Positions 7,717-15,535 of a stretch of 39,045 nucleotides of DNA are shown here, piece after piece. A program made the position numbers and the translations under genes. This DNA is from Geobacter sp. (GTDB taxonomy: Bacteria > Desulfobacterota > Desulfuromonadia > Geobacterales > Pseudopelobacteraceae), in assembly GCA_009886055.1 (NCBI GenBank), contig VFJM01000382.1, forward strand, positions 1 to 39,045, given 5' to 3'. How positions within the stretch are numbered: position 1 is the first letter of the stretch; each line of letters opens with the position of its first letter. The notes beneath the pieces were generated by a model, which ran no database searches, was not told the origin of the DNA, and was given only the letters and a program-made list of their open reading frames with translations.

Positions 7717-8135
7717 ATCAGGGCCCCCCGGATATTTTCTATGCGCCGCCGGTATTCATCAGGCGGCAGAAACAGCTCTTCATGCTCCTCGGCCCAGATC
7801 GGGCGCGGCCAGAGCGGTTCGGACGAGAAGCGCGGTACGATGTGCCAGTGAATATGCGGCACCATATTCCCCAGGAGCTCATAATTGATCTTGGCGGGCG
7901 TATATATGGTGTAAAGCGCCTGCGCCACCGAAGCGAGCTCCTCCATAAGAGCAGCGCGCACGCCCTGATCAAGATGGAACAGTTCGGTGGCATGAACTTT
8001 GGTAAACAACAGTGTATAGCCGGGAAAATACTGATCCCGGTTGAGGATTACGTAGGAGTGCGGCAGTTCAATGATCCGCAGATCTGAATCCATATCCCAG
8101 CGGCGACACATCGGACAGTCAGACATATTATTCAT
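7713..8135 (-). CDS. HIT-family nucleotide-binding hydrolase
   Basis: 140 aa with the histidine-triad signature His94-Ile-His96-Trp-His98 ('PHIHWHIV'). HIT proteins hydrolyse or transfer nucleotidyl groups, for example dinucleoside polyphosphates or AMP-lysine. The N-terminal CPMC (residues 7-10) resembles the Cys pair of zinc-containing HIT proteins. The ATG at 8135 is preceded by GGAGAA at ideal spacing and overlaps the end of hsdM by 8 nt. A second ATG nine bases on is possible. The tight overlap places this housekeeping-type gene directly behind hsdM in one transcript. Confidence 0.92.
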   Translation of the reverse strand: MNNMSDCPMCRRWDMDSDLRIIELPHSYVILNRDQYFPGYTLLFTKVHATELFHLDQGVRAALMEELASVAQALYTIYTPAKINYELLGNMVPHIHWHIVPRFSSEPLWPRPIWAEEHEELFLPPDEYRRRIENIRGALI

Positions 8136-9618
8136 CAGGTTCTCCTATATCCTCGGCAATCAATTTCAGCTGTTCCAGAGCGCTTTCCAGATCGGCAATG
8201 ATGTCGAGGCATATCACTCCCGGTTCGGGCAGATTGTCCGAGTCTTCCAGGCTTTCATCACGCAGCCAGAAGATGTCCAGACTGGCCTTGTCGCGGGCCA
8301 TCAGGTCTACATAGCCGTATGAGCGCCAGCGACCGTCAGTGGCCGCCTCGCTCCAGGTGGCTGTGCGATCAAAGCGGTTCTTCGGGTTGTAGAGGGCGAC
8401 GAACTCGTCAATGTCCCGGCGTTGAAGCGGGTTGGTTTTGAGGGTGAAGTGCAGGTTGGTGCGGAGGTCGTAGATCCAGAGTTTCTTCGTCCAGGGTGTT
8501 TCACTGGCCGGCTTCTTGTCGAAGAAGATCACGTTGGCCTTGACCCCCTGGGCATAGAACAGGCCGGTGGGGAGGCGCAACAGGGTGTGTACGTCGCACT
8601 CCTGCAGCAGCTTGCGGCGGATGGTCTCCCCTGCCCCGCCTTCGAAGAGCACGTTGTCCGGCACGACCACGGCGGCGCGGCCGTGCTGCTTGAGCAGGGT
8701 CTTGATGTGCTGAATGAAGTTGAGCTGTTTGTTGGAGGTGGTGGCGCAGAAGTCGTCCCGCTCGATGGTCTCCTTTTCGCTGTACGCCTTGCCGTCCACG
8801 CCGATGATGGTGGTCGAACTTTTCTTGCCGAACGGTGGGTTGGTCAGAATGATGTCGAAGCGCTCACCCGGATCAGAGGCCAGCGAATCGACGCCCGCCT
8901 CGATGGGGAGCGCCTCGCCGCCGATGCCGTGCAGCATCATGTTCATGGCGCAGAGTCGTGCCGTGGCATGCACCAGTTCCCAGCCGCGCAGGGTCTCGGT
9001 TTCCAGGAACCGCTTCTGGTCCCGGTCCAGCTTGTAATGTGTGGGGTCGCTTACATAGGCAAAGGCCGACAGCAGAAAGCCGCCGGTGCCGCAGGCCGGA
9101 TCGCAGATCGTCTCCTTCGGTTTGGGCGCCATCACATCCACAATGGCCTGGATCAAGGGACGGGGGGTGAAGTACTGTCCGGCGCCGCTCTTGGTGTCCT
9201 GGGCGTTCTTTTCCAAAAGCCCCTCGTAGGCTTCACCCTTGACGTCGGCGCTCATGATAGACCAGTTTTCCTTGTCCAGCAGGTCCACCAGCAGGCGGCG
9301 TAGTTTGGCCGGGTCCTGGAACTTGTTCTGGGCACGGCCGAAGATCAGCCCCAGCAGCCCCTTTTCCTGCCCCAGTTTTTCCAGGGTGTGGCGATAGTGA
9401 TCGAAGAGGTCGTCGCCGTCTTTTTTCAGCAGGCTGGGCCAGTCGTAGCCGGATGGGACCAGGCTTTTCTGGTCAAAAGGTTTCTTCGTCCGTTCGTCGG
9501 CCATTTTGAGGAAGAGGAGGAAAGTGAGCTGTTCGACGTAGTCGCCGTAGCTCATCCCGTCGTCGCGCAGGACGTTGCAGTAGTTCCAGAGTTTTTGTAC
9601 GATTGCAGCTGGGGTCAT
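8128..9618 (-). CDS. hsdM: Type I restriction-modification DNA methyltransferase subunit HsdM
   Basis: 496 aa N6-adenine methyltransferase. Motif I 'DPACGTGG' (SAM binding) is at 173-180 and catalytic motif IV 'NPPF' at 260-263. The N-terminal helical HsdM domain occupies about residues 1-140 and the C-terminal tail is acidic. The subunit pairs with HsdS to methylate, and with HsdR to cleave, bipartite target sites. It is unusual in being separated from hsdS by about 1.6 kb that carries two other genes and tRNA-like sequences. Its ATG at 9618 has only a weak Shine-Dalgarno. A candidate -10 box (TATAAT) lies about 26 nt upstream, inside the Arg tRNA-like element. The opposite strand carries a long open frame (8422-9303) that is a shadow. 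Confidence 0.96.
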   Translation of the reverse strand: MTPAAIVQKLWNYCNVLRDDGMSYGDYVEQLTFLLFLKMADERTKKPFDQKSLVPSGYDWPSLLKKDGDDLFDHYRHTLEKLGQEKGLLGLIFGRAQNKFQDPAKLRRLLVDLLDKENWSIMSADVKGEAYEGLLEKNAQDTKSGAGQYFTPRPLIQAIVDVMAPKPKETICDPACGTGGFLLSAFAYVSDPTHYKLDRDQKRFLETETLRGWELVHATARLCAMNMMLHGIGGEALPIEAGVDSLASDPGERFDIILTNPPFGKKSSTTIIGVDGKAYSEKETIERDDFCATTSNKQLNFIQHIKTLLKQHGRAAVVVPDNVLFEGGAGETIRRKLLQECDVHTLLRLPTGLFYAQGVKANVIFFDKKPASETPWTKKLWIYDLRTNLHFTLKTNPLQRRDIDEFVALYNPKNRFDRTATWSEAATDGRWRSYGYVDLMARDKASLDIFWLRDESLEDSDNLPEPGVICLDIIADLESALEQLKLIAEDIGEPDE

Positions 9619-9640: not shown

Positions 9641-9678
9641 TTGATTATAGAGCAACGGCCTTCTAAGCCGTGGGTCGC
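9641..9678 (+). other. Degenerate tRNA-Arg(UCU)-like element (D-arm and anticodon arm only)
   Basis: The anticodon arm is perfect: stem ACGGC (9655-9659) with GCCGT (9667-9671), and 7-nt loop CTTCTAA with anticodon TCT at 9662-9664. Upstream 'ATAGAGCA' is the 3' half of a tRNA D-arm, preceded by a weak partner (TTCT). The GGGTCGC after the stem resembles a variable loop. There is no T-arm and no acceptor 3' strand; a perfect hairpin (9679-9713) takes their place. It is not a functional tRNA in the usual sense. Confidence 0.7.
9644..9649 (-). promoter_or_regulatory. Candidate -10 box for hsdM
   Basis: Read on the minus strand the bases are a perfect TATAAT. A start site about 7 nt downstream would leave a leader of about 19 nt before the hsdM ATG at 9618. 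No convincing -35 is seen at the right distance. The box lies in the D-arm part of the Arg(UCU) tRNA-like element, where extra bases relative to a normal tRNA create it. Confidence 0.35.
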
Positions 9679-9713
9679 TCGCGGCCACTAGACTGGGGGT
9701 CTAGTGGCCGCGA
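9679..9713. repeat. Perfect 15-bp inverted repeat with 5-nt loop
   Basis: Arm 9679-9693 (TCGCGGCCACTAGAC) is the exact reverse complement of 9699-9713, with loop TGGGG. There is no T-tract on either side, so it does not look like an intrinsic terminator. It lies exactly where the T-arm of the Arg-like element should be and runs directly into the Leu-like element. Bases TAGTGG within the right arm can alternatively pair with CCGCTA (9780-9785) at the end of the Leu-like element. Confidence 0.85.
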
Positions 9714-9785
9714 TGAATTATTTAGACACAAAGGACTTAAAATCCCTCGTGTTATTACATGCCGGTTCGAATCCGGCCTCCGCTA
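9714..9785 (+). other. Degenerate tRNA-Leu(UAA)-like element (3' half well preserved)
   Basis: The anticodon loop CTTAAAA (9736-9742) carries TAA at 9738-9740. The flanking stem has one mismatch. A class II variable arm follows (CGTG/CATG), then a perfect T-arm GCCGG-TTCGAAT-CCGGC (9761-9777) and a tRNA-like 3' acceptor strand CTCCGCT (9778-9784). The 5' side is damaged: the D-loop GG is replaced ('AATTATTTAGACAC') and no matching 7-nt 5' acceptor strand exists. There is no CCA. The gene looks inactive as a tRNA, although the T and anticodon arms would still fold. Confidence 0.72.
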
Positions 9786-9798
9786 CTGCATAATATTG

Positions 9799-9826
9799 TT
9801 GACAGCAAAATTTTATCAGGTATACA
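9799..9826 (+). promoter_or_regulatory. Sigma-70-type promoter for a small RNA
   Basis: A perfect -35 TTGACA (9799-9804) is followed by 16 nt and TATACA (9821-9826). The predicted start at about 9833 falls at the foot of the closing helix of the structured RNA that ends in a T-tract at 9928. The next plus-strand sequence has no gene, so the promoter most likely serves that RNA alone. Confidence 0.6.
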
Positions 9827-9832
9827 GTCTTA

Positions 9833-9928
9833 ACAGACGGGTAAGTCCTGTTACGTGCCTGAGGTGCTCCCCTCCATCGGTTGGCCATGAGCCTCGGGAT
9901 AATAGACGTAACAGGGGCCGTCTTTTTT
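9833..9928 (+). ncRNA. Candidate small structured RNA of about 95 nt, unknown family
   Basis: The sequence can fold into one long interrupted hairpin. The closing helix is AGACGG (9835-9840) with CCGTCT (9918-9923). Then comes a perfect 10-bp helix CCTGTTACGT (9847-9856) with ACGTAACAGG (9906-9915), and an inner helix CCTGAGG (9858-9864) with CCTCGGG (9892-9898). Internal loops are GTAAGT, GG and ATAATAG. A run of six T ends it (9923-9928), as in a Rho-independent terminator. A consensus-like promoter starts exactly at its foot. It converges on the DUF3800 gene, whose stop codon is only 7 nt away. I do not recognise an RNA family. The minimal reading is a strong terminator with its own promoter. 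No expression data are available. Confidence 0.55.
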
Positions 9929-9934
9929 ATTGTC

Positions 9935-10579
9935 CTATTTCAAATACTCCCCTTCATAGACAATAGCCGATTGGTACACCCGGTACCACTCCTCATCCTC
10001 TCCCTCATGTTTCCTGAATATCCCCCAGCAGAAAAGATCTACAGCCTGCAAGCCAGAGTTGTTATGCGACAGTTCATGGGTTATGAATAGTGGGATATCC
10101 AGCGGTAGTAACCCCTGTAGCTGGTTTTCTACATAGGAGTTAAAGTCCTTGATCTCCTCTTTGTTCTTGCACCTGTCCATAATCAGGTTGACGGTATTGC
10201 CCGCCTTTGAAAGATCAATCTTTTCCAGAAGAAACCGGGCCAGGAAGTTATAAAGCTTCTTCTTGCCAAGCTTGGTACGGAGATTATCGTAAACTCGACT
10301 TTTATTCAGAATCACTGAATAGATTTGCCAGCCATCAGACGAAATATGGCGGTAAAAATATTCTTTGATAACCTGAGTAGTATTTGTACCTTTCAACTCC
10401 TGCGATTTGTTCTTCCTGTTGTTAAGTTTGTTCTTCAAGGTCCTGCGGACACCACGCCGGAACCCTTCAATTGCTTCAGCATTTTCACAAACGAGAAGAG
10501 TTATAACGAACTTTCCGGATGTTTTCGGCTTGCTAAAGTCAAAACCCAAATCGCCGGATTCGTCGAGGAAAATGATCAT
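9935..10579 (-). CDS. DUF3800 protein, predicted RNase H-like nuclease
   Basis: 214 aa. It opens with the DUF3800 hallmark 'FLDESGD' (Asp6, Glu7, Asp10), has a further acidic site at Asp135 ('IMDR'), and closes with 'HNNSGLQAVDLFCWG' containing Asp181. The acidic pattern resembles RNase H-fold nucleases, so nuclease activity is expected but unproven. The ATG at 10579 is preceded by AAGGA. The gene is clearly more A+T- and Lys/Asn-rich than hsdM or hsdR, which suggests separate acquisition. It is flanked on both sides by incomplete tRNA-like elements pointing toward it. It lies between hsdM and the hsdRS-side genes. DUF3800 genes are known from defence and mobile islands, but their role is not established. 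Confidence 0.85.
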   Translation of the reverse strand: MIIFLDESGDLGFDFSKPKTSGKFVITLLVCENAEAIEGFRRGVRRTLKNKLNNRKNKSQELKGTNTTQVIKEYFYRHISSDGWQIYSVILNKSRVYDNLRTKLGKKKLYNFLARFLLEKIDLSKAGNTVNLIMDRCKNKEEIKDFNSYVENQLQGLLPLDIPLFITHELSHNNSGLQAVDLFCWGIFRKHEGEDEEWYRVYQSAIVYEGEYLK

Positions 10580-10601
10580 GTGTGAAGTCCTTCGAATTTT
10601 T

Positions 10602-10647
10602 CCTGTTGATTAACAGCCACCTGCTCTACCAACTGAGCTAAAGGTGG
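10602..10647 (-). other. Truncated tRNA-Asn(GUU)-like element (5' half)
   Basis: On the minus strand the order is CCACC, then TTTA, a canonical D-arm GCTCAGTTGGTAGAGC (10638-10623), and GGTGG. The anticodon loop is CTGTTAA with GTT at 10614-10612. The 3' anticodon strand (TCAAC) pairs poorly with GGTGG. Instead GGTGG is complementary to the 5' CCACC, and CTGTT can pair with the following AACAG. T-arm and 3' acceptor are absent. The element sits in the leader of the DUF3800 gene, 23 nt from its ATG, probably within the hsd transcript. Confidence 0.7.
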
Positions 10648-10650
10648 ACT

Positions 10651-10700
10651 GGCCCTCAGCATTACGAGTGATGTGCTCTAGCACCTGAGCTAAAATGGCA
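10651..10700 (-). other. Truncated tRNA-Thr(CGU)-like element (5' half)
   Basis: On the minus strand TGCCATTTTA is followed by a D-arm (GCTC, loop AGGTGCTA, GAGC). The anticodon arm pairs CATCA with TGCTG (4 of 5 pairs) around loop CTCGTAA; the anticodon CGT is at 10666-10664. The sequence then runs AGGGCC and, after a few bases, straight into the Asn-like element. No T-arm or 3' acceptor is present. It begins 9 nt after the stop codon of the 164-aa gene. Confidence 0.68.
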
Positions 10701-10708
10701 TTCAAAAG

Positions 10709-11203
10709 CTACCACTCTTCCGGATTGAAATCGCGCATGAAATTAATCCAGTCGATCGAGGCTGACCCACGAAAAAGAGCCTTGCCGCTCATACTGATGA
10801 AACTGACCTGTTTGGCTTGCAGCAGTGTGCTTATAACCGGCACAGCATCATAAGGAATAAACGCACTAAAATCCCGATGTTCTCCTCGGATGGTGAGACC
10901 TCCGATTGAACGAGGTTGCGGATCAAGGTATTCCTCTCCAATCAAATTTGAGGTCAGCTTCCTGTCACCGAGCAACATTATTCGAATATCCTTGCCGTCA
11001 AATTTAAATGGATATCGTAAAAGGCCTTTTATCTCAAGGTGGAGGTGTTCCCGATATGACCCGGCAAAAAATCGATCATCGCGATTGACTGTGAAAGAAT
11101 AACTTGTTTGCCAGTCCGCTACTTCGACAATGTACGAACCGTACGCTTCTTGAACCGATTTGCGTACTTTCCGTGGTTTTTTCTCAGCAACGACTTTGAC
11201 CAT
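10709..11203 (-). CDS. Conserved-looking hypothetical protein of the hsd operon
   Basis: 164 aa, starting at the ATG at 11203, which has a strong Shine-Dalgarno (GGGAGG) and lies 10 nt after the hsdS stop. A longer frame up to 11380 overlaps hsdS and is not needed. I do not recognise the family. There is no signal peptide or membrane segment. The first 20 residues are basic (several Lys/Arg). The remainder looks like a soluble alpha/beta protein with alternating hydrophobic stretches ('YSFTVNRDDRFFAGSY', 'IRIMLLGDRKL'). Position and spacing say it is translated with hsdS. A role as accessory factor, restriction control or anti-phage protein is possible but not shown. Confidence 0.8.
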   Translation of the reverse strand: MVKVVAEKKPRKVRKSVQEAYGSYIVEVADWQTSYSFTVNRDDRFFAGSYREHLHLEIKGLLRYPFKFDGKDIRIMLLGDRKLTSNLIGEEYLDPQPRSIGGLTIRGEHRDFSAFIPYDAVPVISTLLQAKQVSFISMSGKALFRGSASIDWINFMRDFNPEEW

Positions 11204-11213
11204 GCGCGCCTCC

Positions 11214-12647
11214 CTACACCAGCCCGCCCGAAAACGCTCGTTGCAGGATCGTCTGCCGCAGCCGTTCGGCGCGTTTGAGGTTGGTTTCGATGGTGGTTTC
11301 GAGTTCTTGGGTGACGGAGAGGCGGCGGTCGATTTCTTCAAGGATTGCCTTTTGCTCTTTAGAGGGCGGCAAAGGAGCATTCACCGTCCTGATGTCATCG
11401 AGGCCAAGCCCAACTTTAGTCGCCCCTCGCTGAAGCTCCTTAAACTGGTCTTGACCTGTTTTGCACGCAAGAAACCAGGCGAGATATGTACTGTTGACAA
11501 TTGTTAGAGGCCGTGCCAGCGATACATGCTGATTGATATAGGCTACTTCAAATCCATCAGGGACCATTCCAATCATGCCAACATCGGCAGTTATAGAAAT
11601 GAGAATATCTCCAGCGACAACACGAGTGCGTGAGCCTTCCGCTCCTTCTGGTGGCTGTACGCGTTGGATATCGGATAAATCCAGCGATATCGTTTCATGG
11701 TCGAGGTTCCCCATTCTCAGGAATATTGGTCCCGTTTCCGAGTAATAACATGCCCAACCTCTCGAACCACTGGTTACAAAAGAGAACAGTTGGTCGCTCT
11801 TCACCCACACCCACCCATCCGGCAATTCTGGCAGATTAGCCGTATCCGGCCCGGCAGGTTCCTTGTATTTCTTCTTCCACGAATCATCCTTCGGGTTGAT
11901 CCCCTTGGCCTTCATCTTCGCCTGTTCTTCGGCTTCCCACTTGGCGTGGCGTTCAGCGAGGATGCGTTTGAGGAGTTGGTCGGCGGGCTCGGCGTTAGGG
12001 TGATCCTTGCGCCACTGTTCGGTAAGTTTGCCTTCGACAGCGGCCTTGAGGACGGCGGCCTTGTAGCGTTTGAGGTTGACCTGTATCCGCTTGAGCGATG
12101 CAACGGCCTCATCCAGCCGTGAGAATTGTTTTTCGATTTCGGCGACGATTCGCTTTTGGTCTTCAGGTGGGGCAAGAGGAAACGGAATCTCTTTGAGAGT
12201 TTCTAAGCGAATACCTTTAACGGTTGTACCCGAACCAATCGATTCCAAGTAATCAGCAATGGAAACAATCCAGTATTCAAGATAGCTTTTGTCAATTCCG
12301 GCTTTAGGAATAAGTGCCTTTAAATCTTGATTGATTGTTGAATCATAAGGAACACGAATAACCTTGCCAAGCCCGACTCTGGTTGCAATGATCACTGTGT
12401 CTGCCGGAATGATATTGGTTGAACTTTCCTTTATGGCAACTTCAGATATGTGGTCAATCGAATCAATTGGCCGACGTGTACGCATATCCTTGATCGTCAA
12501 CCATGGAATTTTGCCTTGCCAATAGCTGGGATTACTTTTTGATGGTGTACCGCCACCAATGATTTTTGATAGAATCTCTCCAAGTGGAACCCATTTCCAA
12601 TTTTTTGGTAATTCTAGTTGGCCGGTTACGGTTCTATGTCTACTCAC
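11214..12647 (-). CDS. hsdS: Type I restriction-modification specificity subunit HsdS
   Basis: 477 aa with the classical two-TRD layout. The first target-recognition domain is about 1-170 ('LPKNWKWVPLGEI' start). A coiled-coil spacer with the 'RIVAEIEKQFSRLDEAVASL' pattern follows. The second TRD begins at 'LPDGWVWV' (about 275-435). A C-terminal helix of similar type ends the protein ('EQKAILEEIDRRL'). HsdS recognises the bipartite DNA site for both methylation and cleavage. The start is a GTG at 12647 that overlaps the hsdR stop (GTGA), giving tight coupling to hsdR. Both TRDs look intact. The target sequence cannot be read from the protein by eye. Confidence 0.95.
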   Translation of the reverse strand: MSRHRTVTGQLELPKNWKWVPLGEILSKIIGGGTPSKSNPSYWQGKIPWLTIKDMRTRRPIDSIDHISEVAIKESSTNIIPADTVIIATRVGLGKVIRVPYDSTINQDLKALIPKAGIDKSYLEYWIVSIADYLESIGSGTTVKGIRLETLKEIPFPLAPPEDQKRIVAEIEKQFSRLDEAVASLKRIQVNLKRYKAAVLKAAVEGKLTEQWRKDHPNAEPADQLLKRILAERHAKWEAEEQAKMKAKGINPKDDSWKKKYKEPAGPDTANLPELPDGWVWVKSDQLFSFVTSGSRGWACYYSETGPIFLRMGNLDHETISLDLSDIQRVQPPEGAEGSRTRVVAGDILISITADVGMIGMVPDGFEVAYINQHVSLARPLTIVNSTYLAWFLACKTGQDQFKELQRGATKVGLGLDDIRTVNAPLPPSKEQKAILEEIDRRLSVTQELETTIETNLKRAERLRQTILQRAFSGGLV

Positions 12648-15535
12648 GCCGCAAGCACCTCATTCAATTCCTCCAACATCCCCCACAACTCCTCTCCAAA
12701 CAACTGATAGACCTTGCCGATCCCGCCGTTCTCCTTGAACGGCGTAAACTCGAAATCATCCCGCCCGATCTCCAGGCTGGCAATAACATGGTCGCGTATC
12801 CGCTCCAGCCACCAGCGCTGCTCGTCACTGAAACCCTTGCCGCTCGCCTCCTGCTTGGCAATCCAAACGGCAAAGCGTTCGTGAACATGCTCCTCGAACG
12901 GCTCCAAAACCGGTTCCTGATGCAGGGCAAAACGGACCAGCGAAACGATATCGGTCCAGAGCCGCCTGCTCCCAACTCCCTTGACCTTAGATGATTCCAG
13001 CGCCGCATAGGCATCCCACAACCGGTCGATACGCCAGAGATACGGCGGCTTCTCGATCATCTCGGCCAGCCCCTTGATCTCGTCATACTTCAACCGCTGG
13101 CGATAGGGGCGGCTGTAGAGAATCTGCAGGGCGGTGATTTCGTCCTTGTGCTCCTCGATGAACTGCTCGAAGGAGTGCACCAGTCCACGGGCCTTATCCA
13201 GCGCATCGGCGTCGAAACCGGCCTCAATGACCTCGTCGGCGCTGACCGTATCAATAATCTGGTCGGCCTTACGCTGCAACTCCAGGATCTTCTCCCGAAG
13301 CTTTGGCTCGCAGAGCGGCTTGACCGCCTGCCGGATCAGCGTGATCCCGGCCTGCCGAACCTGATCCACGGTTGGGTCACTGACACCAAAATCAACCCTC
13401 GCCTGTTCGATCTGCCGTTCCGGGTCGATTGATGCGATCAGGTCACCGGTCAACACCTTCAACCCCTTGCCATCGGTCAGCTTCTCGATCTCCGCCTTGC
13501 CGGCCGAATCAAGCTTCTTCTCCAGACGGGCAAATCGCCCGGCGATTGAGGAGACAACCTCACTCTCCGTATTACCCAGAGCCACGGCCTGCAGCAGCTT
13601 TTCCAGGGAAACGGTCGGTTTCTTCTCCAGCGGGCGGGAATCGGTCTTGTCCTGTTCACAGACGCCCACCGCATCCACAATGACGAAGTGGGTCTTGGCA
13701 ACGGCATCGGGGGTGACCGCCTGCAGGTCGGTGTCGTTGATTACCCGCACCCCACGCCCCTTCATCTGCTCGAAGAAAGAACGGGAACGGATCATGCGCA
13801 TGAAAAAGACGCACTCCAGCGGTTTGATGTCTGTGCCGGTGGCGATCATGTCCACGGTGACGGCGATGCGCGGCATCGGGCTGGTGCGGAACTCGGCGAT
13901 TAGCTCCTCCGGCTTCCTGCCGGTGGTGCGGTAGGTGATCTTCTGGCAGAAGTCGTTCCCCTTGCCGAATTCTTCGCGCACGATGCGGACGATGTCCTCG
14001 GCGTGGGAATCGTCCTTGGCAAATATCAGGGTTTTGGGCACCCAGGTTCGGCCGGGAAAGATCTCGGTCAACACCTTGTCGCGGAAGGTCCGGATCACGG
14101 TGCGGATCTGATCCACGGCCACCACGTCCCGGTCGAGCTGGTTGGCTTCGTAGGTCAGCTCCTCGTCCAGTTGTTCCCACCGCACGGCCCGCGTTTCCCG
14201 CTCACGATGGTCCACGTAATGCCCGGCCTCCACGACCGAGCCCCCCTGGGTGATCTTGGTCCTGATGCGGTAGACATCGTAATTGACGTTGACCCCATCG
14301 GCTACGGCCTGTTCGTGGGGATATTCCATCACCAGGTTCTGGTTGAAGAAGCCGAAGGTCTGCTTGTTGGGGGTGGCTGTCAAGCCGACCAGATAGCCGT
14401 CGAAATACTCCAACACCTGGCGCCAGAGGTTGTAGATCGAGCGGTGGCATTCGTCGGTGACGATCAGGTCGAAGGTCTCGGGCGGGATGGCCGGATTGTA
14501 GACCACCGGCGGCGGCTCCTTGAAGAGGCCGGTCTGGTCGAAGAGCGATTCCTCCTCCAGCTCCGGGGCCAGCTCCTCGCCCCGCAGGATCGAGTAGAGC
14601 CGCTGGATGGTGCAGATGCAAACCCGCGCCGTAGTGTCGAGGCGGCTGCTCTGCAGGTGGTTGACGATGTACTCTTCGGTGAATTTGTACGGAGTATAGG
14701 GTGACTGATACTGCTGAAACTCTTTCAAGGTCTGGCGTCCCAGGTTGGCACGATCCACCAGGAACAACACCCGCCGGGCACCGGCGAACTTGAGCTGACG
14801 GTAGATGAAAGAGACCGAGGTAAACGTCTTGCCCGATCCGGTGGCCATCTGCACCAGCGAGCGGGGACGGTCGGCGGCCAGTGATTTTTCCAGGTTGCCG
14901 ATTGCCGTGAACTGGGCAGGCCAGAGCCCCTCGGAATGCAGCGGCGGCATGCGGCGCAGCCGGCTGCGGTAACAGTCGGGAGACCAGATCACTCCCGGAT
15001 CAGCAACGATTGAATCCGTAGGGGCGAAGCAAGGGGTATCTGCTTCGCCCGATCTTTCAGACGATGGCGACATGGGCGAAGCAGGTGAAACATTTGCTTC
15101 GCCCCTACAGACTTCATCCAGCCACTCGGCCAGTGTTTCGGGACGATGGAAGGAGAATACCTGGCGGGAACGGGGATCAGGATCGAGGCCACTGGTAAAA
15201 CGGGTCTCTATGCCGGTTGACTGATAACGGAAAGTGAGCGGGCGGAACCAGGCAGGGAGCGAGAGCGGCAACCCCTGAGTGTATTTATCAGACTGAATCT
15301 CGACGCCAGAGAGTGTTACCCCGGCCTTCTTGGCCTCGATCACCCCGGCTGCCTTACCATCAATATACAGCAGATAGTCGGCAAAACCGAAGCCGCGCTC
15401 CAGCGGAAACTCGCGGATAGCCACGCCACGACCGGCATGCAGGTTGACGCCTTTTACGTCCTGCACCATCCAGCCGGCCTCGGCAAGCATGAGGTCGATA
15501 TCTATGCGCGCTTCCTGTTCAGGTGTGGGGGACAA
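12644..15535 (-). CDS. hsdR: Type I restriction endonuclease subunit HsdR
   Basis: 963 aa. The N-terminal nuclease domain has Asp53 and Glu67-Ala-Lys69 of a PD-(D/E)xK site. The SF2 translocase motor has Walker A 'ATGSGKT' (231-237), DECH box (361-364) and 'GLTATP' just after it. A C-terminal helical region (from about 700) would contact the methyltransferase. Start is a TTG at 15535, with AGGAG 8 nt upstream. Residues about 143-173 are encoded by a nested palindromic repeat (15018-15108) and form a Ser/Pro/Glu-rich stretch between the nuclease and motor domains. The reading frame is intact through it, so the protein is probably active. It is the first gene of the hsdR-hsdS-unknown-DUF3800 string. 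Confidence 0.95.
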   Translation of the reverse strand: MSPTPEQEARIDIDLMLAEAGWMVQDVKGVNLHAGRGVAIREFPLERGFGFADYLLYIDGKAAGVIEAKKAGVTLSGVEIQSDKYTQGLPLSLPAWFRPLTFRYQSTGIETRFTSGLDPDPRSRQVFSFHRPETLAEWLDEVCRGEANVSPASPMSPSSERSGEADTPCFAPTDSIVADPGVIWSPDCYRSRLRRMPPLHSEGLWPAQFTAIGNLEKSLAADRPRSLVQMATGSGKTFTSVSFIYRQLKFAGARRVLFLVDRANLGRQTLKEFQQYQSPYTPYKFTEEYIVNHLQSSRLDTTARVCICTIQRLYSILRGEELAPELEEESLFDQTGLFKEPPPVVYNPAIPPETFDLIVTDECHRSIYNLWRQVLEYFDGYLVGLTATPNKQTFGFFNQNLVMEYPHEQAVADGVNVNYDVYRIRTKITQGGSVVEAGHYVDHRERETRAVRWEQLDEELTYEANQLDRDVVAVDQIRTVIRTFRDKVLTEIFPGRTWVPKTLIFAKDDSHAEDIVRIVREEFGKGNDFCQKITYRTTGRKPEELIAEFRTSPMPRIAVTVDMIATGTDIKPLECVFFMRMIRSRSFFEQMKGRGVRVINDTDLQAVTPDAVAKTHFVIVDAVGVCEQDKTDSRPLEKKPTVSLEKLLQAVALGNTESEVVSSIAGRFARLEKKLDSAGKAEIEKLTDGKGLKVLTGDLIASIDPERQIEQARVDFGVSDPTVDQVRQAGITLIRQAVKPLCEPKLREKILELQRKADQIIDTVSADEVIEAGFDADALDKARGLVHSFEQFIEEHKDEITALQILYSRPYRQRLKYDEIKGLAEMIEKPPYLWRIDRLWDAYAALESSKVKGVGSRRLWTDIVSLVRFALHQEPVLEPFEEHVHERFAVWIAKQEASGKGFSDEQRWWLERIRDHVIASLEIGRDDFEFTPFKENGGIGKVYQLFGEELWGMLEELNEVLAA
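15018..15108. repeat. Nested palindromic repeat element inside hsdR
   Basis: The outer arms GTAGGGGCGAAGCAA (15018-15032) and TTGCTTCGCCCCTAC (15094-15108) are perfect inverted repeats. Inside lie CTGCTTCGCCC (15040-15050) and its exact complement (15074-15084). The unit can also fold as two hairpins side by side, each built on GGGCGAAGCA. This is the form of short mobile palindromes (REP or MITE type). It is translated in frame as part of HsdR. No other copy was noticed in the window. Confidence 0.8.

Follow-up and report, generated by a model that had tools for sequence, protein, structure and literature searches.

Pieces of host-lineage tRNA genes around accessory genes in type I restriction loci of Geobacter and related genomes

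Why should pieces of several different tRNA genes surround a single small gene in a bacterial restriction locus? The question is raised by a stretch of 39,045 nucleotides (nt) from Geobacter sp. (assembly GCA_009886055.1, contig VFJM01000382.1), here called the window, in which a DUF3800 gene lies within a type I restriction-modification (hsd) locus. An earlier description made from the letters alone (the sequence-only reading) had reported four incomplete, inward-facing tRNA-like elements around this gene and had proposed that they are tRNA mimics serving the DUF3800 protein, with a decayed phage tRNA array as the plain alternative. We found that such pieces recur at related loci, that they do not arise by chance, and that they are neither decayed phage tRNAs nor specific to DUF3800.

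tRNA pieces in the window and at related loci

The window was searched by BLAST with 116 tRNA sequences from related genomes, and the E-values of the tRNA pieces found span 6e-7 to 4e-14. In the control, the same 13 sequences were read backwards and gave one match at E <= 0.01 (its E was 0.010). As this control was nearly empty, the pieces are not due to chance. ARAGORN found no complete tRNA in the 39-kb window, and the Rfam tRNA models gave only sub-threshold matches to it. The pieces are as follows:

9647..9676, plus strand: Arg(TCT) piece, tRNA nt 20-49, anticodon arm intact; 29/30 to tRNA-Arg(TCT) of genus member G005, E 2.6e-9
9679..9713, plus strand: Pro(GGG) anticodon arm, core 9686-9707 equal to tRNA nt 26-47; 22/22 to host tRNA-Pro
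9723..9749, plus strand: Leu(TAA) anticodon arm; 26/27 to tRNA-Leu(TAA) of G495, E 1.9e-7
9758..9785, plus strand: Leu(CAA) tRNA 3' part behind the Leu(TAA) arm (chimera); 27/28 to host tRNA-Leu(CAA) nt 56-83
10607..10644, minus strand: Asn(GTT) 5' half, tRNA nt 4-41; 37/38 to host tRNA-Asn, E 4e-14
10654..10699, minus strand: Thr(CGT) 5' half, nt 1-46; 43/46 to genus tRNA-Thr(CGT), E 4e-14

The incomplete elements are therefore real and more extensive than had been noted: the Arg, Leu, Asn, and Thr elements are all present, but the Pro(GGG) arm had been overlooked. The element described as Leu-UAA does contain a Leu(TAA) arm, but as a whole it is a chimera of Leu(TAA) and Leu(CAA), and the D-arm claimed for the Arg element is kept in its 3' part while the remainder is absent. 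The described layout was borne out, as every piece is oriented toward the DUF3800 gene, and so was the location, as hsdR, hsdS, and hsdM are all present in the window according to Pfam. The suggested alignment with host tRNAs showed that most pieces are nearly exact to tRNA genes of the host lineage.

The hsdM gene was searched in 141 genomes of the order. Pieces adjoin hsdM genes that are orthologous, as judged by sequence, in eight genomes of three families. Among the 12 loci whose hsdM is at least 79% identical, pieces are present in seven (G000, which is the window, G494, G022, G035, G056, G495, and G050) and absent from the stretches read in four (G496, G002, G042, and G483); the twelfth, G044, could not be judged because its contig ends 37 nt upstream of hsdM. 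One further locus, in G025, was found through Fic; its Pro arm has a Fic remnant on one side and, approximately 0.7 kb away on the other, an hsdM remnant. No pieces were found in the flanks of 15 more distant hsdM loci (44-59%).

On the hsdM side, these loci carry arrays of same-strand anticodon arms with up to six units, and on the other side a block of Thr and Asn 5' halves (the Thr-Asn block) precedes the accessory gene, DUF3800 or Fic. The window array lies directly upstream of hsdM and points away from it. The arrays read as follows:

G000 (window), opposite to hsdM: Arg-Pro-Leu(TAA)
G494, opposite to hsdM: Arg-Pro-fMet
G022, opposite to hsdM: Pro
G025, opposite to hsdM: Pro
G035, opposite to hsdM: Arg
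G495, opposite to hsdM: Arg-Ser(CGA)
G050, opposite to hsdM: Pro-fMet-Leu(CAG)-Leu(TAG)-Leu(CAA)-Leu(TAA)
G056, between hsdS and the gene preceding hsdM: Arg-Leu(TAG)-fMet-Leu(CAG)-Leu(TAA)

Two arms, Leu(TAG) in G056 and Arg in G495, fall under the BLAST cut-off and were read by eye. The 14 loop-to-loop spacings are 33, 43, 31, 30, 30, 36, 36, 29, 29, 30, 30, 34, 25, and 30 nt, with a median of 30 nt. The order of shared unit pairs is kept in 9 of 11 comparisons, which are not independent, as the G000 and G494 arrays probably represent one lineage. We could not match the arrangement to any described system, and a literature search, which left most subscription journals uncovered, returned no paper that we recognised as describing such an array.

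A genome-wide repeat family was also considered and, in the genus, is not supported. Among 39 genomes, the exact Pro arm occurs in more than one copy only in G000, G022, and G019, and both G019 copies are complete tRNAs; the 30 other Pro places retrieved comprise 29 in complete tRNAs and one interrupted where its contig stops. An exact match to the 22-nt Arg pattern was found in 27 of the 39 genomes, with two copies only in G035, and 26 of its 28 places lie in complete tRNAs, the other two being the hsd pieces of G000 and G035. It should be noted that this count across the 39 genomes is confined to the Pro and Arg patterns, and that truncated native Thr copies exist.

The link to DUF3800 was examined at 19 DUF3800 loci. 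Pieces were found in the window, in L102 (the G494 locus), in G022, and in G495, and the Thr-Asn block lies upstream of DUF3800 there; the DUF3800 gene behind the G495 block is a remnant of residues 1-91 (L250 5408-5686). No tRNA pieces at E <= 0.01 were detected in L103-L108, L085, L086, L089, L090, L092, L095, L096, L099, or L100, with the provisos that the tRNA library comes from one order, so that host-specific pieces elsewhere may be missed, and that L103 ends soon after its gene. Eight of these piece-free loci (L086, L089, L090, L092, L095, L096, L099, and L100) are loci of the structured RNA DUF3800-V in which the DUF3800 gene has at least 211 matched residues. Minor matches at the piece-free loci were a 15-nt match inside the gene in L096 and a complete tRNA-Arg in L099. 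Meanwhile, Fic genes are preceded by an Asn piece in two genomes, accompanied by a Thr anticodon arm in G035 and by a decayed Thr in G022. As pieces occur at only 4 of the 19 loci, they belong to the hot spot and not to DUF3800. A general role as guide or antitoxin RNA for DUF3800, which the sequence-only reading had proposed, was rejected, since 15 of the 19 loci lack pieces and two Fic genes have them; DUF3800 loci devoid of elements had been named in that reading as a refutation. The window-type DUF3800 subfamily has a conserved RNA of its own, DUF3800-V.

Two side observations concern these accessory genes. In G495 (L250 3772-6672), inspection by eye shows a replication-like open reading frame (ORF) of 268 residues behind the DUF3800 remnant and a longer ORF, DUF3800-like, upstream. 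A small gene that begins MKKSLLETNPYLK resembles Fic_N weakly (E 0.0014 in L102, under the cut-off); it recurs in the vicinity of Fic, the Thr-Asn block, or an array (L041 6656; L074 10545; L102 3838; L249 6337 and 3269) and is possibly an antitoxin.

Cassette exchange, arm conservation, and origin of the pieces

Between the window and G022, fourfold-degenerate sites are identical at 167 of 217 positions in hsdM and at 13 of 54 in DUF3800, and the leader from Asn to the start codon is identical at 11 of 25. The pieces of the same pair agree at 43/46 (Thr), 37/42 (Asn), and 21/21 (Pro) positions; G022 has no Arg arm. Because hsdM and the pieces are conserved and DUF3800 and its leader are not, the cassette has changed between conserved pieces; this comparison of sequences indicates that the DUF3800 gene was replaced or evolves much faster. 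As 77% of the hsdM fourfold sites are identical, the saturation concerns the cassette and not the whole locus. An argument for purifying selection from the DUF3800 synonymous sites alone was withdrawn as too strong in view of the same hsdM value.

When six Thr-Asn blocks were aligned, they agreed up to the Asn loop plus at most three bases and then continued into four leaders, two of DUF3800 and two of Fic; in the window, the cassette junction sits just behind the Asn(GTT) anticodon loop. Cassette content differs among the orthologous hsd loci: DUF3800; Fic with a Fic_N-like gene; and, in G035, DUF6933, NTP_transf_8, and PifA-like proteins. In G022, the Fic gene and the DUF3800 gene are each preceded by a Thr-Asn block, in which the Thr before Fic is decayed. 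In G494, a Schlafen AlbA_2 protein (PF04326, 5.7e-20; L102 2608-3636) is encoded between hsdS and the Thr-Asn-DUF3800 unit. Among the compared loci, common outer neighbours were seen in the window and G035 only.

Substitutions relative to the parent tRNAs were counted in 33 pieces and affected 1 of 231 loop positions, 30 of 330 positions in five-pair stems, and 79 of 330 flank positions. The loop conservation is biased upward, as loop strings guided the choice of pieces, which was made by BLAST and by eye; for the 11 pieces placed by synteny, all of them Thr or Asn, the counts were 1/77, 17/110, and 32/110 for loop, stem, and flank, respectively. The 33 do not include the Thr copy in front of Fic in G022, which is strongly decayed. 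Parents did not always come from the genome of the piece: G005 supplied Arg for G000, G494, and G035, G000 supplied Pro and fMet for every locus, G495 supplied Leu(TAA) for G000, and Thr and Asn were those of the genus. Within these limits, the counts agree with the earlier claim that anticodon arms are selectively retained and do not decay uniformly with the rest. The sole loop change turns G495 Thr into TGT, another Thr anticodon. The G495 Arg arm shows two double compensatory changes relative to the tRNA-Arg(TCT) of its own genome, with the loop unchanged.

Contiguous stems longer than in the parent were seen in G000 Pro, the hairpin of the window (14 pairs around the loop vs 7), G494 Pro (8 vs 7), and G050 Leu(TAG) (10 vs 5), and shorter ones in G025 Pro, G056 Leu(TAG), G050 Leu(CAA), G050 Leu(TAA), G000 Leu(TAA), G000 Thr, and all six Asn pieces. 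Among the 22 hsdM-side arms, 12 fold better than their parents, 3 as well as them, and 7 worse; of the 11 gene-side arms, 10 fold worse because half of the Asn stem is lost. The arrays of the window, G050, and G056 fold better than shuffled sequences (z -4.6, -3.2, and -2.3).

Several pieces bear on origin. The Leu(CAG) arms of G050 and G056 match the tRNA of their own genome over 34 and 29 nt and that of each other over 13. Over the span from nt 21 through the 3' end, the right-hand unit of G495 is identical to tRNA-Ser(CGA) at 65/65 positions. Agreement of the hsd Thr pieces with tRNA-Thr extends to nt 46-47, and a native tRNA-Thr(CGT) gene is truncated at nt 45 in G000 (L043 551-613, C35), at nt 45 in G026 (L064), and at nt 48 in G028 (L059), with a different complete tRNA-Thr(CGT) following. 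Breakpoints are shared between species (Thr at about nt 46, Asn at about nt 41), as are derived bases. The Thr truncations, the Ser piece, and the own-genome Leu(CAG) matches are, at the sequence level, consistent with site-specific recombination at anticodon loops, whose loop and stem geometry at tRNA attachment sites has been described (PMC8371274).

Candidate roles of the pieces

The reading that we favour, with a probability of roughly 45%, is that the pieces are attachment-like recombination sites built from anticodon arms, at which defence cassettes are exchanged. Anticodon-arm sites derived from host-lineage tRNAs would mark the borders of exchangeable defence-gene cassettes in the type I restriction locus, with the Thr-Asn block preceding the cassette and same-strand arms accumulating approximately 30 nt apart upstream of hsdM. 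Their role, present or past, would be at the DNA level: the 7-bp anticodon loop would serve as the overlap for strand exchange, with the stem forming the inverted core arms, a proposal that follows the known geometry of tyrosine-recombinase sites in tRNA genes. The cassettes (DUF3800 with DUF3800-V; Fic with the small Fic_N-like gene; others) would be joined at the loops by a recombinase acting in trans or since lost, which presumably made the sites and may still use them. Growth of the arrays is probably on the cassette side, because a tRNA 3' part is preserved in the cassette-adjacent unit of both the window and G495. The Ser unit of G495 is the very block that an anticodon-loop integrase site would carry.

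A number of observations weigh against cassette exchange at such sites. The pieces on the two sides derive from different tRNAs and point toward one another, so that no single site pair spans the cassette, and arms without both tRNA ends are an unusual scar. The compensatory changes in G495 Arg, together with the longer stems of G000 Pro and G050 Leu(TAG), point to hairpins and not to a fixed recombinase core, and the largely kept Thr and Asn D-arms would not be needed in a minimal attachment site. Native Thr scars of G018 and G020 break earlier, near nt 26. A motif screen, not a hidden Markov model search, found no tyrosine-recombinase motif in 14 stretches comprising the array loci and others, and the motif lay beside 1 of 85 loci for the tRNAs Pro, Arg, Thr, and Asn (hsd pieces in two cases) vs 3 of 60 control tRNA loci; the idea that the native genes of these four tRNAs are integrase hot spots is thus unsupported. 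No integrase was found among the selected ORFs run against Pfam. The island finder Islander rejects internal tRNA fragments, and 5' fragments are rare (159/3919 islands; PMC4383910).

If the arms are instead transcribed, their stem-loops could be RNA decoys for anticodon nucleases, or the Thr-Asn block, directly ahead of a start codon, a translational operator for tRNA-binding proteins. The nearly invariant loops, the common strand and regular spacing within each array, the compensated G495 Arg arm, the excess folding over shuffles, and the G495 Thr loop that still reads as Thr would all suit such tRNA mimics, as would the end of the G056 array approximately 30 nt upstream of a small same-strand gene. 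We consider this rather doubtful: nearly all gene-side arms fold worse than their parents, the hsdM-side arrays run against hsdM, the promoter scan reported none for the window array, and no common anticodon-nuclease specificity is apparent among the ten tRNAs used. That the pieces are passive relics of repeated recombination at the hot spot, alike through recency or gene conversion with tRNA genes, is unlikely in our view. Turnover is indicated by the own-genome Leu(CAG) matches and the chimeric Leu; the G496 hsdM locus, with 95% protein identity, has no piece in the 24 kb read; and palindrome growth can result from template switching. Such relics would hardly share breakpoints and derived bases across species, keep the order of their units and an even spacing, or retain Pro at 21/21 between the window and G022 while 23% of the hsdM fourfold sites differ.

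It is quite improbable that the hairpins were recruited as terminators or insulators between genes, with their tRNA origin incidental: the window Pro hairpin scored as terminator-like (2 found vs 1.2 in shuffles, standard deviation (sd) 1.0), but it is the sole window arm that did, and conservation is highest in the anticodon loops, which have no bearing on termination. A decayed phage tRNA array, the plain alternative of the sequence-only reading, recalls the closeness of several tRNA species and is nevertheless hardly credible. The pieces match tRNA genes of the host lineage with higher identity than phage records, and their breakpoints are common to species. Of 50,697 phage records, 121 match the Thr-Asn stretch L102:3870-4000, in no case over 80% of its length, and the 20 phage matches listed cover the Asn part only, at 87.5-91.3% identity. 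The G050 array had no match in the phage or plasmid collections, three patterns had none in viral contigs, and one plasmid record matches part of the Thr-Asn query only, with no array. Of the earlier interpretation, the selective retention of arms and the view that these are not usual integrase scars stand, while the DUF3800 link and the phage array do not. A broader proposal, somewhat doubtful, is that an ordered, host-matched array of anticodon stem-loops constitutes a new genetic element, renewed from the tRNA genes of its own genome in steps of approximately 30 nt and kept in a defence locus for the use of its loops, either as a multi-specific landing pad by which the integrases of invading elements load defence cassettes or as RNA decoys against tRNA-attacking factors.

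Among known systems, the loci resemble the anticodon-loop attachment sites of tyrosine integrases in tRNA genes (tDNA) in their 7-bp loop and stem palindrome and their blocks of tRNA identity, and the G495 Ser unit starts ahead of the anticodon arm and extends to the 3' end. The arms are centred on the loop, and the Asn junction is at most three bases away from it, as for a tDNA island. Unlike such islands, the 39-kb window has no intact tRNA with a displaced end fragment (ARAGORN), no integrase gene was found inside (motif screen of the 14 stretches; selected ORFs vs Pfam), most right-hand pieces are internal to the tRNA, and several tRNA species stand adjacent, about 30 nt apart. Integron cassette arrays consist of unrelated genes with a recurrent short element between them, and the G022 Fic and DUF3800 genes, each behind a Thr-Asn block, are similar in this respect; here, however, the elements are tRNA pieces, and no integron integrase was seen in the motif screen (attC sites were not searched with a model). 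The thrS leader is a tRNA-mimic operator, and likewise a Thr(CGT) anticodon arm lies upstream of a start codon here, but it is not beside a synthetase gene, it is fused to an Asn 5' half, and most arrays are outside leaders. Anticodon-nuclease genes such as prrC occur in type I hsd loci; an accessory defence gene within an hsd locus and the tRNA theme are shared, but no anticodon nuclease was recognised in the window.

Should the arms be recombination sites, the loading of unrelated defence genes into a single restriction locus would be explained, and tRNA attachment sites would be used in tandem away from tRNA genes. If they act as RNA, they would add to the known tRNA mimics a new class connected with phage defence. 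Internal tRNA fragments, discarded by rule in an island finder, can carry signal.

DUF3800, its RNA, and the restriction genes

The remaining features of the locus are as follows:

8128..9618, minus strand: hsdM of the type I restriction-modification system (PF02384, 1.3e-70; PF12161, 5.7e-12)
9799..9826, plus strand: likely DUF3800-V promoter, TTGACA-16 nt-TATACA (by eye), both hexamers kept in the window, G494, and G022 (alignment)
9830..9927, plus strand: DUF3800-V structured RNA (RF02964), 46.4 bits vs cut-off 37.4
9935..10579, minus strand: DUF3800 protein (PF12686, 5.8e-15, 56.7 bits vs cut-off 21)
10709..11203, minus strand: hypothetical gene upstream of the Thr-Asn block, no Pfam match above cut-off
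11214..12647, minus strand: hsdS (PF01420, 3.3e-33)
12644..15535, minus strand: hsdR (PF04851, 1.9e-33; PF08463, 3e-37)

The minus-strand order is hsdR, hsdS, the hypothetical gene, Thr, Asn, and DUF3800, followed on the plus strand by DUF3800-V, Leu, Pro, and Arg, and then by hsdM. In the flank of the Arg piece, positions 9644-9649 read TATAAT on the minus strand, toward hsdM; this hexamer is also present in G494 and may be an hsdM promoter element. In G022, an IS200-like Y1 transposase gene (PF01797, 1.2e-7; L041 2456-3106) lies between hsdR and hsdS.

The structure predicted for the DUF3800 protein (mean predicted local distance difference test, pLDDT, 81.9) gave RNase HII 1eke as the best Foldseek match (E 2.7e-5, template modelling score TM 0.61). 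The protein is thus predicted to have an RNase HII-like fold, in line with the RNase H-like nuclease named before; an RNase H fold is stated for a different DUF3800 protein (PMC10910872), which agrees with this prediction.

The window RNA scores above the covariance cut-off, and the adjacent DUF3800 gene makes the pair a member of the DUF3800-V/DUF3800 module; elsewhere among the scanned genomes, the module does not include the tRNA pieces. The RNA is convergent with the gene, whose 3' end is 7 nt away, and is followed by a T-run; it is identical to that of G022 at 90 of 94 positions. DUF3800 RNAs were reportedly named in a 2017 paper. DUF3800-V was above the cut-off at 4 of 7 loci found through the DUF3800 protein (L102, L103, L106, and L107), and in a phylum-wide sample of 395 genomes, 17 had a match at E <= 0.001, which exceeded the cut-off in 14. 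The promoter scanner chose the TTGACA of the likely promoter but paired it with a different second hexamer, and the total of 3 that it reported was near the shuffle mean of 2.0 (sd 1.2). A single transcript of DUF3800-V and the tRNA pieces is unlikely, as the conserved TTGACA/TATACA pair, read by eye, separates them.

Three minor observations concern DUF3800-V elsewhere. In G037 (L003 1501-1750), a DUF3800-V-like RNA of 37 bits, just under the cut-off, is followed by what appears, by eye, to be only the 3' end of a DUF3800 gene. In L099, the complete tRNA-Arg(ACG) at 1139-1215 lies approximately 300 nt from a sub-cut-off DUF3800-V match. In G277 (L087), where no DUF3800 gene is detectable, a tRNA-Asp(GTC) 3' piece (1225-1273; nt 29-77, 92% identity) lies approximately 230 nt from the DUF3800-V RNA and resembles an ordinary integration scar running from the anticodon to the 3' end.

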